Source: Sulfurimonas sp. HSL1-2
Lineage (GTDB): Bacteria > Campylobacterota > Campylobacteria > Campylobacterales > Sulfurimonadaceae
Length of the DNA stretch: 64,000 nt
Assembly: GCF_039645565.1 (NCBI RefSeq)
Contig: NZ_CP147914.1
Coordinates: 1,299,573-1,363,572 of the forward strand
Direction: 5' to 3'
Part shown: positions 6,113-12,583 of the stretch, piece by piece
Layout of the letters: every line of letters starts with the position of its first letter
Numbering within the stretch: the first letter of the stretch is position 1
Made by a program: the position numbers and the translations under genes
The notes under the pieces: model-generated
What the model was told of the DNA's origin: nothing
Seen by the model: only the letters and a program-made list of their open reading frames with translations
Database searches by the model: none

Positions 6113-7066
6113 TCAGGAACGCATTTTCGCATAGAGCGACGCCAGCGCCTCGACAAAGAGCGGGTGGTCGTTGGGACAGGCGGCGACGCGGTAATCCTCG
6201 TACCCCAGCTCCTCGGCCACTTCGCGGTACTCCATATCGAGCTCGTAGAGGGTCTCGGAGTTGTCGATCGTAAAGGCGATCGGAAAAACAAGCACCTTTT
6301 TGCACTCCAGGCTTTCGAGCTTCTGCTCCAGGGAGGGTTCCAGCCACTTCAGCGGGCCGACCTTTGACTGGTAGGCGATATGGATGTCGGCAAAGGCGAG
6401 TCCCGCCGCTTCGAGCATCGGCTTCAGCAGCGCGACGTGTTCGGTCACGTGATGTTCGTACGGATCGCCCTTGTCGACAATCTTCTGCGGGAGCCCGTGC
6501 GCGGAGAAGATCAGTTCAAACGCCCCCGCGTCCGCCCCGGCCATCGCCTCGCGGATACGGTCGATGATGACCGCGTTGTAGGTCGCACTGGTGTAAAAAT
6601 GCTTGATCTCCGTCACCAAAGCCTTCAGCCCCAATGCATGCATCCGAGCTTCGTAATCCTCCAGGGAAGACTTGGTCGTCGTCGTCGAGTACTGCGGGTA
6701 GAGCGGAATCAGGTAGACGTGTGTCACCCCTTCCGCTTTCAGACGTTCGATGGAAACGTCCGCAAAGGGCGGTGTATAGCGCATGGCAAAATCGACGATA
6801 ACGTCTTCGCCCAGTTTCGCCTGCAGCGCCGCAACGAGCTGCTTCGTAATGCCGACAATGGGCGATTTACCGCCGAGCTTCTGGTAGACCTCCTGCGCGC
6901 TCTTCGTGCGGTTCGAGGTAATGACGCTGGCAATGAAGCGGCGCAGCAGGTCGCTCTTCATCGTCAGAATGTTGGGGTCGTTGAACATGTTATGCAGGAA
7001 GGTCTGAACCTCGTAGAGGTCGTTCGGGCCTCCCATATTAAGCAATATGACTGCATTTTTTGCCAT
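6113..7066 (-). CDS. hemH: Ferrochelatase
   Basis: HemH inserts ferrous iron into protoporphyrin IX, the last step of protoheme synthesis, at the inner face of the membrane. The protein (317 aa) carries the family hallmarks: the N-terminal LLNMGGP, the PLYPQYSTTTT porphyrin-side motif, the catalytic His in FSAHGLP and the acidic ENSETLYELDMEY-type helix (here DNSETLYELDMEY). I chose ATG 7066 because its A overlaps the TGA of the upstream hydrolase gene (TGATG); a GTG two codons upstream is possible. The three genes upstream on this strand appear co-transcribed. Confidence 0.95.
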   Translation of the reverse strand: MAKNAVILLNMGGPNDLYEVQTFLHNMFNDPNILTMKSDLLRRFIASVITSNRTKSAQEVYQKLGGKSPIVGITKQLVAALQAKLGEDVIVDFAMRYTPPFADVSIERLKAEGVTHVYLIPLYPQYSTTTTKSSLEDYEARMHALGLKALVTEIKHFYTSATYNAVIIDRIREAMAGADAGAFELIFSAHGLPQKIVDKGDPYEHHVTEHVALLKPMLEAAGLAFADIHIAYQSKVGPLKWLEPSLEQKLESLECKKVLVFPIAFTIDNSETLYELDMEYREVAEELGYEDYRVAACPNDHPLFVEALASLYAKMRS

Positions 7067-7836
7067 CAGCACACCTTTGAGACGTCGGCGATGAAACGTT
7101 CGCTGCCGAGTATTTCTGCATGATTGTACCCGCTGTATACTTTATGGACAGCTAACAACGGCGCCTTCTCCTTCAGCGCAAGGCTCTGCTCAAGCGGCAC
7201 GATCTCGTCGTCCCGGCTGGCATAGATGCTTACCGGTGCGCTGACGCCGCCGAGATAACGGGCCGTCTCAAAACGGCAGCGCATCAGCCACCCCGGGAAG
7301 AAAGGCACCCTGCGGCGCGCGAGGGAGGGAATATCGTAAAAAGGTGCGACAAGGATGAGCCGCGTCACGTCGGTGCGCGAAGCGGCATAGGCGGCCACGC
7401 TGCCGCCGAGGCTGTAGCCCATCAGCATCAGCGGGCCGAAACGCTCTTTGGCATAGGCCACCAGCGCAACGGCATCCTCGAGCAGAACGCGTTCGCCCGG
7501 CCTTCCGCCGCTGCGGCCGTAACCGCGGTAGTTGAACGCGATGATACGCCAGTCGGGGAAACGCTCGCTGAGCTTACTGACCAGCGCCACGCTGTCCTGC
7601 TCCTTGCCGCCGAAATAAAAGACGGTGCTGCGGGGCGACTCCGGCTCGTACACGATGCCTTCCAGCACGACGTTGCCGCCGCGCACCTGCTCGAGCCCCC
7701 GGAAGCGCTCCGGGTGCAGGTGGAACGCGTCACGTTTGGGGTAATAAACAGGGGCGAAAACCAGCCGCGGCCACAGCAGAAAAAGCACACCCCAAAGCAG
7801 CACGATCACGCCGATGACCGTCAGAACAACCGTCAC
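7066..7836 (-). CDS. Membrane-anchored alpha/beta hydrolase
   Basis: The 256-aa protein has one N-terminal TM helix (about residues 3-24) and then an alpha/beta-hydrolase domain of the BEM46/ABHD13 kind. The nucleophile elbow GYSLGG (Ser142), an Asp in SRDDEIV and a His in YNHAEIL make a complete triad. The substrate is unknown; homologues are esterases or thioesterases. It starts at a GTG that overlaps the stop of the upstream lipoprotein gene (GTGA), and its own TGA overlaps hemH, so it lies inside a coupled operon. Confidence 0.8.
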   Translation of the reverse strand: MTVVLTVIGVIVLLWGVLFLLWPRLVFAPVYYPKRDAFHLHPERFRGLEQVRGGNVVLEGIVYEPESPRSTVFYFGGKEQDSVALVSKLSERFPDWRIIAFNYRGYGRSGGRPGERVLLEDAVALVAYAKERFGPLMLMGYSLGGSVAAYAASRTDVTRLILVAPFYDIPSLARRRVPFFPGWLMRCRFETARYLGGVSAPVSIYASRDDEIVPLEQSLALKEKAPLLAVHKVYSGYNHAEILGSERFIADVSKVC

Positions 7837-10136: not shown

Positions 10137-10192
10137 TTAATGCAGATGTCCACCCTCGCCGGTCGGACAGAAACAGGAGGAGGAACAAAACA

Positions 10193-12583
10193 ATGAGCAC
10201 GGAGCTGATCAGACTGCCCGTCGTCGTCATCAAGCTCGCCGATGACGACGGCTCGCACTATGCAGGCGACGCATTTTCAGACGACACGATCAGGGCGCTG
10301 ATCGAGGATACCAATGCCATTTACGAACCCGATGTGGGCATCAGGCTGATTCTGCAGAAGATCAGCACCCTCAACAATACGCTGATCAACCGTGTGGCGG
10401 ACTGGAGCATGGAGTGCCCCGATGCAGAGGCGACGATCCCGCACCCGGACCCTGCTTTCGCCGGTTACCGCCTGAGCCCTTCGCAGCATGCGGCCTACAG
10501 CTATGCGGCCAAGCACTACCCCGACAAGATCGTCATTTACGTCCGCCGCCGGACCGCCATCAGGGTGCCAGTCGATGCGGGTTACCCCAAACCGCTTGAC
10601 GGGAACTGGCCCGGACTCCCCGCCGCGTTCAAGCAGGGGATCGACGCCGCCCTGCTGCGGCAGGACAACGGCAAGATCTACCTCTTCAAAGGAAACGAAT
10701 ACGTCCGCTTCTCAAGCGTCAGTGCAGGAGTAGACCCGGGTTACCCCAAGCCCATCGCGAACCACTGGCCGGGCCTACCGGCTTCCTTTCAGCAGGGGAT
10801 CGATGCCGCGCTTTGGCGGGAGAGTAACGGCTGCGTCTACCTCTTCAAAGGGAGCGAATACGTCCGTTTCACAAGCGTCAGTGCCGGCGTCGACCCGGGC
10901 TATCCCAAGCCCATCGCCGACCACTGGCCGGGCCTCCCGCCCTCATTCCAACAGGGGATCGATGCCGCGCTCTACTACAAACCCACCGGTCAGATCTATT
11001 TCTTTAAAAATGACGAATACGTCCGCTTCTCAAGCGTCAGTGCAGGAGTAGACCCGGGCTACCCGCAGGCCATCAGAGACAACTGGCGCGGTCTCCCGGA
11101 GGGATTCGAACAGGGCATCCAGGCGGCCCTGTGGCGCGAAAGCAACGGCTGTACCTACCTCTTCAAAGGCAGCGAGTATGTCCGGTACTCGAAGGCGTGC
11201 GACATTGTCGACGAAGGCGGCGGCGGTTTCTCGCACAAAGATATGAACTTTGTCGCGCTCAGCCCGTGGGCGGCGACGGGAACGCTGGGCGTCATGGTCT
11301 ACGCCGGCGGTCCTACCCCCGCCCAGGCACCCCACGTCTTTCTGGCCCATGAGCTCGGCCACTACTTCGACCTGACCCATACCATGCGCAACGACTCCCC
11401 CGAAACAATGGCCGTCGCGACGCAGCAGCTCGACGACTACTGCCGGCAGCACTATCCCGACCCCAAAAACGTCCCCGAAAACATCGCGGACCTCGTTTGG
11501 GATATGGATACCCTGACGGATACCTCAGGCGATCCGGGCGCCACACTGTACATGCAGGCGCTCTTCGGGACAGACCTGCCCTCTGCCACCGCCAACCCCT
11601 GCATCGGGGCCGGTACGTTCACCGTCCACTCGGACTACTGCGGCAGGGACTTTACCGCGACACCGCCGCGCGACAACGTCATGAGCTACACGGCGCAGTG
11701 TCCCTACCTTCCCGGCAACACCACCGGGCAGACGCGGGCACGGATCACGCCGCAGCAGCGGGCCATCATCCACGCATCGCTGACAACCTGGCGCAAAAAC
11801 CTGCAGCAGCTGCCGGTGGGCCATGACCGCTACAACGCCGTCTGGATCAAATCGGACGAAGACCGTCCCGTCATCTGGGCCTGGAAACGGGCCGACTTCG
11901 ACAGACTGAAAAAAGAGTATGATGCAAAAGGGTTCCGCCTGGACGAACTCAACGCCTTCGTCCTGCCCGGCGGCGAGGTGCGCTACAACGCCGTCTGGAT
12001 CAAATCGCACGACGACAGGCCCGCCGTCTGGGCCTGGAAACGCGCCGATTTCGACAAGCTCTACACCGAGTACTACGCGAAAGGGTACCGGCTGGCGTCG
12101 CTCAATGCCTTCATGCTCCCCGACGGCATTGAGCGTTTCAACGCCATCTGGATCAAATCGCACGAAGACCGGCCCGCTGTCTGGGCCTGGAAACGCGCCG
12201 ATTTCGACAAGCTGTACACCGAGTACCATGACAAAGGCTTCCGCCTGATCGATATCAATACGTTCGTCTACCCTGACGGAGAGGAGCGCTACAACGCCGT
12301 CTGGATCAAGTCGGACGAGGACCGTCCCGCCGTCTGGGCCTGGAAACGCGCCGACTTCGACAAGCTGTACACCGAGTACAACGCGAAAGGGTACCGTCCG
12401 GAACGCCTCAATGCTTTCCTCGGCGCCGACGGCGAACTGCGCTACAACGCCCTCTGGGTCAATGTAGGCGGCGGCAGAAAGGCCCTGTGGGAGTGGGTGC
12501 GCTGGGACTTCGAGAGCCGCCACGACACGCTGCACGCCAAGGGGTACCGCCTCTATCGGCTCGGCTGCAGCGTCCTACCCTAG
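10193..12583 (+). CDS. Metzincin-like metalloprotease with inserted four-blade hemopexin domain and five C-terminal tandem repeats
   Basis: The 796-aa protein is modular. Residues 1-126 look like the N-lobe of a zinc protease. Residues 127-338 are four repeats of exactly 53 aa (VDPGYPKPI...YLFKGSEYVRF), the number needed for a complete hemopexin beta-propeller. Residues 386-396 are HELGHYFDLTH, a zinc site of the HExxHxxxxxH type with Asp where metzincins usually have Gly. A Met-turn follows (DNVMSY, Met497). Residues 546-796 hold five 51-aa repeats (RYNAVWIKS..RPAVWAWKR) like 'bacterial tandem repeat domain 1'. I see no signal peptide, although Cys residues near the active site suggest export. 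The ribosome-binding site is strong. The gene looks accessory; target and export route are unknown. Confidence 0.85.
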   Translation: MSTELIRLPVVVIKLADDDGSHYAGDAFSDDTIRALIEDTNAIYEPDVGIRLILQKISTLNNTLINRVADWSMECPDAEATIPHPDPAFAGYRLSPSQHAAYSYAAKHYPDKIVIYVRRRTAIRVPVDAGYPKPLDGNWPGLPAAFKQGIDAALLRQDNGKIYLFKGNEYVRFSSVSAGVDPGYPKPIANHWPGLPASFQQGIDAALWRESNGCVYLFKGSEYVRFTSVSAGVDPGYPKPIADHWPGLPPSFQQGIDAALYYKPTGQIYFFKNDEYVRFSSVSAGVDPGYPQAIRDNWRGLPEGFEQGIQAALWRESNGCTYLFKGSEYVRYSKACDIVDEGGGGFSHKDMNFVALSPWAATGTLGVMVYAGGPTPAQAPHVFLAHELGHYFDLTHTMRNDSPETMAVATQQLDDYCRQHYPDPKNVPENIADLVWDMDTLTDTSGDPGATLYMQALFGTDLPSATANPCIGAGTFTVHSDYCGRDFTATPPRDNVMSYTAQCPYLPGNTTGQTRARITPQQRAIIHASLTTWRKNLQQLPVGHDRYNAVWIKSDEDRPVIWAWKRADFDRLKKEYDAKGFRLDELNAFVLPGGEVRYNAVWIKSHDDRPAVWAWKRADFDKLYTEYYAKGYRLASLNAFMLPDGIERFNAIWIKSHEDRPAVWAWKRADFDKLYTEYHDKGFRLIDINTFVYPDGEERYNAVWIKSDEDRPAVWAWKRADFDKLYTEYNAKGYRPERLNAFLGADGELRYNALWVNVGGGRKALWEWVRWDFESRHDTLHAKGYRLYRLGCSVLP

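Follow-up and report, generated by a model that had tools for sequence, protein, structure and literature searches.

A bacterial metzincin with a hemopexin propeller that probably interrupts its catalytic domain

The window analysed here is a 64,000-nucleotide stretch of the Sulfurimonas sp. HSL1-2 genome (contig NZ_CP147914.1), and coordinates refer to it unless stated otherwise. At 10193-12583 on the forward strand lies an open reading frame encoding 796 amino acids, which a preliminary description had read as a protease with a propeller and C-terminal repeats; the frame itself, its Pfam matches and a 95% identical orthologue confirm this reading. The gene has a strong Shine-Dalgarno sequence and a third-position GC of 0.81, is flanked by FAD oxidoreductase and nitroreductase genes, and lies 3 kb from a ferrochelatase gene (6113-7072, reverse strand). 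Its features are as follows:

10175-10183, forward strand: ribosome-binding site AGGAGGAGG, 9 nt 5' of the ATG (read from the sequence)
10193-12583, forward strand: whole gene, 796 aa metzincin with a probably nested hemopexin propeller and C-terminal BTRD1 repeats (open reading frame, Pfam, orthologue L002, dN/dS)
10193-10555, forward strand: N-lobe, residues 1-121, with beta1 (6-14), helix A (30-48), beta2 (50-59), a helix (96-108) and beta3 (113-117) (profile, Pfam Reprolysin_3 at residues 33-62, AF2 secondary structure)
10571-11200, forward strand: inserted hemopexin propeller, residues 127-336 (PF00045, E 1.3e-51; phmmer, MMP-14 propeller, E 2.5e-25; Foldseek)
11201-11827, forward strand: metzincin C-lobe, residues 337-545, with edge strand IV, strand V, zinc helix, Met-turn and C-terminal helix (alignment with L004-L009; partial Pfam Reprolysin_4/5 and M43 matches)
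11348-11380, forward strand: zinc motif H386-E387-L-G-H390-Y-F-D-L-T-H396 (HELGHYFDLTH) (sequence)
11675-11692, forward strand: Met-turn N495-V-M497-S-Y499-T, within DNVMSYT (N-x-M-S-Y invariant in L004-L009)
11828-12580, forward strand: five 51-aa BTRD1 repeats, residues 546-796 (PF17660, E 1.6e-29; alignment)

The chain opens into strand beta1, starting approximately five residues ahead of it, and has no N-terminal pro-segment with a Cys switch. Upstream of the start codon, 19 open codons encode a basic stretch that is not hydrophobic, in agreement with the earlier remark that a signal peptide is absent, and no secretion genes were found adjoining the protease gene. An antisense frame of 336 codons over the C-terminal repeats (11525-12535, reverse strand) was set aside, as it is probably an artefact of GC-rich periodic coding sequence.

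In the Pfam scan the Hemopexin model matched four stretches and BTRD1 four scored stretches, where alignment finds five repeats; Reprolysin-type metzincin models gave partial matches around the zinc site, and no M10 family match (Peptidase_M10) was obtained up to E 1. The metzincin zinc motif HEXXHXXGXXH/D is present at H386-H396 with Asp at the Gly position, and the Met-turn aligns with N-x-M-S-Y in six of six relatives. The N-terminal metzincin subdomain, comprising strands I-III and helix A, is matched by the profile described below (residues 4-59) and by the order of AF2 secondary structure, not by 3D packing. The layout is an unusual, well-conserved variation on known parts.

Sequence comparison indicates that one metzincin domain is likely interrupted by a four-bladed hemopexin propeller, which separates its N-lobe from its zinc half. 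The preliminary description had proposed this arrangement, which is supported by profile and Pfam tests with controls, by the order of secondary structure elements and by the evolutionary rates of the lobes. Insertion-free relatives of the zinc half (L004-L009) were found in Planctomycetota and Bacteroidota; L004, L005 and L007-L009 pass the Pfam M43 cut-off and L006 falls below it. A Clostridium candidate (L003) was rejected as an M48 peptidase. Joined in silico, residues 1-121 and 336-545 align with L004-L009 over the full length of the domain. Their junction coincides with a loop of 4-9 residues that leads, in these relatives, from strand III (I-N-x-Y-F) to the following strand. The insertion point thereby appears to lie between strands III and IV, adjoining the cleft-edge strand.

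An earlier profile of six sequences discriminated poorly, with a marginal N-lobe match (3 of 2000 shuffles and 3 of 769 natural decoys equalled or beat it), so a profile of 31 uninterrupted metzincin sequences was built, and only this richer one separates the N-lobe. It places residues 4-59 on its positions 27-79, the beta1-helixA-beta2 part, at 9.1 bits. This score exceeds the best of 2000 shuffles (5.5) and the best of 1580 natural fragments (5.3), so that the N-lobe ranks first among 1581 fragments. The joined lobes score 40.3 bits against the same profile, compared with 31.1 for the C-lobe alone, and none of 1000 joins with a shuffled N-lobe reach this value. A grid of junctions was best at 121|333, with several others within 1-2 bits; the boundary of the insertion is therefore approximate. 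The Pfam models behave similarly. Reprolysin_3 covers N-lobe residues 33-62 with its positions 4-33 and the C-lobe with positions 96-123, and joining the lobes raises its score from 12.9 to 23.5 (cut-off 22.4) and that of Reprolysin_4 from 18.7 to 24.8 (cut-off 22), where four shuffled-N controls give at most 12.2 and 17.5-17.7, respectively.

Structural modelling added secondary structure only. The AlphaFold model of residues 1-545 (pLDDT 50, pTM 0.27) is too weak to show lobe closure, TM-scores to PDB entries are approximately 0.2 or less for it and for the model of the propeller alone, and its structural matches were discarded as meaningless at this model confidence. AF2 secondary structure nonetheless runs strand, helix, strand, helix, strand within residues 1-121, with a long zinc helix at 379-399. 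Models that do not close the lobes would also suit a string of independent domains, in which residues 1-126 form a separate small pro-domain or binding domain, followed by the propeller and a minimal zinc-helix protease that needs no N-lobe. Such a string would likewise account for the C-lobe scoring alone in Pfam and in the local profile, and for the automatic full-length alignment (MAFFT), which misplaced the gap and did not recover the split. We nevertheless consider it unlikely: the N-lobe is in register with beta1-helixA-beta2 of metzincin profiles with clean controls, constraint is equal in both lobes, and a C-lobe alone would be without strands I-III, which are common to every metzincin. 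An unrelated domain in residues 1-126, the outcome that the preliminary description had set against nesting, was not seen.

The propeller was first described as four 53-aa hemopexin repeats. Four units are indeed present, of which only three are whole (153-205, 206-258 and 259-311), the fourth being divided between the two ends of the propeller (127-152 and 312-336). An integer blade count with the cut inside one unit is what would be expected of a ring whose start and end must be neighbours in a loop of the host. Closure into a four-bladed ring would fit the four PF00045 stretches and a blade strand pattern, the latter taken from a weak model (AlphaFold of the propeller alone, pLDDT 47). With this model, Foldseek returned hemopexin domains as best matches at low TM, reflecting local strand order only; by sequence (phmmer), MMP-14 and MMP-2 (E 9e-20) have the closest propellers of solved structure.

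The C-terminal array holds five repeats by alignment, as claimed, with the fifth diverged and shortened to 47 aa; excepting this last one, they are 67-78% identical to one another. By analogy, the five BTRD1 repeats probably form one closed five-fold ring. In polyglycine hydrolase, five EHEE repeats of the N-domain close into a barrel (Fvan-cmp, 7tpu; PMC9912923), and such BTRD1 proteins resemble the Sulfurimonas protein in having five repeats of approximately 50 aa that match PF17660. Their ring, with poorly conserved repeats, comes before a beta-lactamase-like domain, whereas here the ring is C-terminal to a metzincin. In two sampled bacterial loci (L051 and L044) a beta-lactamase-like serine hydrolase comes after BTRD1-like repeats; these appear to be bacterial counterparts of the polyglycine hydrolases of fungi.

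At the DNA level, TRF detects tandem arrays of period 159 (10605-11184, score 553) and period 153 (11828-12462, score 740). Both periods hold exactly, although identity between the copies is no more than 52-83%. Each repeat shares 89-94% nucleotide identity with its orthologue in the sister species, compared with 52-83% with its neighbours in the same gene (the fifth BTRD repeat was left out of this comparison because of an indel). The duplications are therefore older than the split of the two species, contrary to the recent internal duplication first suggested.

The catalytic part appears to be a pappalysin-like metzincin of the lower-pappalysin/M43 type, not a matrix metalloprotease (MMP). 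The best solved relatives of the profile are pappalysin-2, ulilysin, PAPP-A and mirolysin, with E 5e-12 against ulilysin (2cki) over positions 3-229 and E 9e-8 against mirolysin (6r7w). The Pfam M43 model (PF05572) scores 15.7-16.8 bits, under its cut-off of 23; given this score and the absence of both pro-segment and signal peptide, we describe the protein as functioning in the manner of a pappalysin and not as a proven member of the family. Uninterrupted leaderless metzincins with a GGGFS-type motif ahead of strand IV are known from bacteria and fungi. With the lower pappalysins (ulilysin, mirolysin and cytophagalysin; MEROPS M43) the protein shares a Tyr two residues past the Met and the D..DT..D region behind the zinc motif, in which D439, D443, T444 and D447 are conserved. 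In the pappalysin family the C-terminal subdomain carries a calcium site and two disulfides; here Cys 417, 470, 483 and 503 are present and may pair accordingly. Mirolysin shows the same Asp-for-Gly variant of the zinc motif as HELGHYFDLTH, its Asp231 standing at the usual Gly (PMC6949598). Unlike the lower pappalysins, the Sulfurimonas protein has neither a signal peptide nor a Cys-Gly switch pro-segment and carries a propeller in the strand III-IV loop; in cytophagalysin only a helix lies between beta3 and beta4 (PMC11674741).

Foreign modules within a pappalysin catalytic domain have a precedent in PAPP-A and PAPP-A2 (pappalysin-1 and -2), in which LNR1-2 act as substrate-specific exosites; the LNR modules of PAPP-A control cleavage of IGFBP-4, not of IGFBP-5 (PMC9579167). 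These inserts differ from the propeller in being 30-residue calcium-binding LNRs, apparently in another loop, and PAPP-A is an animal, secreted, disulfide-rich protein. In bacterial pappalysins, the top strand is divided by an LNR-like loop (PMC6949598).

The M10A matrix metalloproteases likewise combine a metzincin with a four-bladed hemopexin propeller, there placed on a hinge after the catalytic domain, whereas here residues 127-336 precede the zinc site at 386. The contrast with animal MMPs drawn in the preliminary description therefore stands as to order, although the comparison is partial, the catalytic half being pappalysin-like. In the gelatinases MMP-2 and MMP-9, fibronectin type II modules are inserted in the catalytic domain. 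Hemopexin repeats do occur in other bacterial proteases. The examples found here carry them after the catalytic domain and belong to other protease families: an M35 peptidase of Streptomyces sp. NBC_01361 (L092) and an S8 subtilase from Bacteroidota, with eight repeats (L049). The latter and L102, also from Bacteroidota, are subtilase-family proteins whose C-terminal ends are very regular arrays of eight to ten hemopexin repeats of approximately 54 aa. In the literature searched, we found no description of a hemopexin propeller within a metzincin catalytic domain.

Nor did a second nested case emerge among approximately 1,900 sampled genomes; the samples covered Planctomycetota (294 genomes), Bacteroidota (296 and 397) and the organism's own phylum. 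Viral contigs yielded no hemopexin or metzincin relative and phages none, and plasmids gave hemopexin matches only, with no match to the C-lobe. The gene occurs in 2 of 228 family genomes, being absent from the other 226 and from the rest of 397 genomes sampled across the phylum. The second carrier, another species of the genus (G006), holds a syntenic orthologue of 797 aa (L002) in an independent complete genome, and the gene is therefore not an assembly artefact. In two sister genomes (G004 and G007) the site is empty: the stretches matched by the flanking genes, with coordinates taken from BLAST, lie approximately 106 bp apart, compared with approximately 2.6 kb in the carrier. Overall dN/dS between the two orthologues is 0.097, with the lobes lower (N-lobe 0.064, C-lobe 0.050) and the propeller (0.116) and BTRD part (0.107) higher; dN is 0.007, 0.011 and 0.040 in N-lobe, C-lobe and propeller, respectively. 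Both lobes thus share a slow rate and the propeller evolves faster. Two sister species have an intact copy of the gene, which is under purifying selection in both; the gene is rare and has probably been gained (or lost from the sisters) and maintained.

These comparisons suggest a working model. Residues 1-121 and 337-545 would fold into one zinc endopeptidase, and the two ends of the propeller would complete one shared blade, so that they meet and the propeller fits a surface loop. Strand IV, the antiparallel edge strand lining the substrate cleft, follows the insertion by alignment, and the propeller should therefore stand beside the cleft. Since the LNR inserts of PAPP-A steer substrate choice, the same logic would make the propeller a built-in exosite, holding on to a protein (or matrix) substrate and offering it to the zinc. 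We favour this analogy tentatively, at a little under even chances. The C-terminal five-repeat BTRD ring may serve as a second binding or anchoring module, although a binding role is a guess. Domain content, selection, the intact zinc motif and Met-turn and the fit of both lobes to one metzincin profile come directly from sequence, whereas three-dimensional closure, the exosite role, proteolytic activity and the site of action are inferred.

In animal MMPs, a hemopexin propeller at the end of a flexible hinge directs the enzyme to collagen and other substrates. If the propeller were part of the catalytic domain itself, exosite and active site would instead be rigidly fixed to each other, which would offer a natural test of exosite steering. 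The nested design is comparable with the LNR inserts of PAPP-A and the fibronectin inserts of gelatinases, and split-blade closure illustrates how a repeat ring can be housed in a loop. The practical weight of these points hinges on activity and substrate being shown.

The propeller might alternatively be a passive or evolving spacer without a catalytic role, in a general protease or an enzyme losing function in two species. Its dN, approximately four times that of the lobes at replacement sites, and the confinement of the gene to two family genomes lend this some weight, yet its dN/dS indicates purifying selection, and frame, repeat number and register are kept in both species; we regard a spacer as rather improbable. 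Less probable still is that the propeller, beyond serving as an exosite, works as a ligand-operated gate: built straight into the loop ahead of the cleft-edge strand, it would shift that strand on binding its target and so switch the protease on, in place of the missing pro-segment latency. If true, metzincins would have a novel mode of regulation here, in a protein that arrives at its target with no signal peptide.

We also doubt that the protease acts on other cells, whether as leaderless, effector-like cargo of an injection device or after release by lysis, with the propeller and the BTRD ring binding the target. Other bacterial hemopexin-repeat proteins (L010, L013 and L049) also lack an obvious leader, as this one lacks a signal peptide, and a phage-tail-sheath gene occurs in both carriers and not in G004 or G007. 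This gene, however, lies approximately 95 kb away, solitary among metabolic genes and fused to a methylguanine-methyltransferase domain, and the T6SS sheath TssC was not found; a tail-tube model gave no match, its control being silent too. The sheath protein itself (L096:15922-17394; G000:C1:1403922-1405394, outside the window) matches Phage_sheath_1 and Phage_sheath_1C, its C-terminal end is fused to an O6-methylguanine-DNA methyltransferase DNA-binding domain, and the gene has equal open-frame length in G006.

Heme handling, with the propeller binding heme and the protease degrading heme proteins, is very improbable: the ferrochelatase gene would suit it, but the best propeller matches are to MMP, vitronectin and plant albumin, ahead of heme-binding hemopexin, heme binding by serum hemopexin takes two propellers, and the FAD-oxidoreductase and nitroreductase genes that flank the protease gene adjoin in the sisters, so that the neighbourhood says little.

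Elsewhere, L096:1773-11239 carries a type I secretion set (an ABC transporter, an HlyD-like protein and an outer membrane efflux protein), beside which lies a protein with no Pfam match whose start, we presume, resembles the retention module of giant surface adhesins. A 770-codon frame from Planctomycetota (L040) places hemopexin-like repeats, judged by eye, between peptidoglycan-binding-like and OmpA-like segments.
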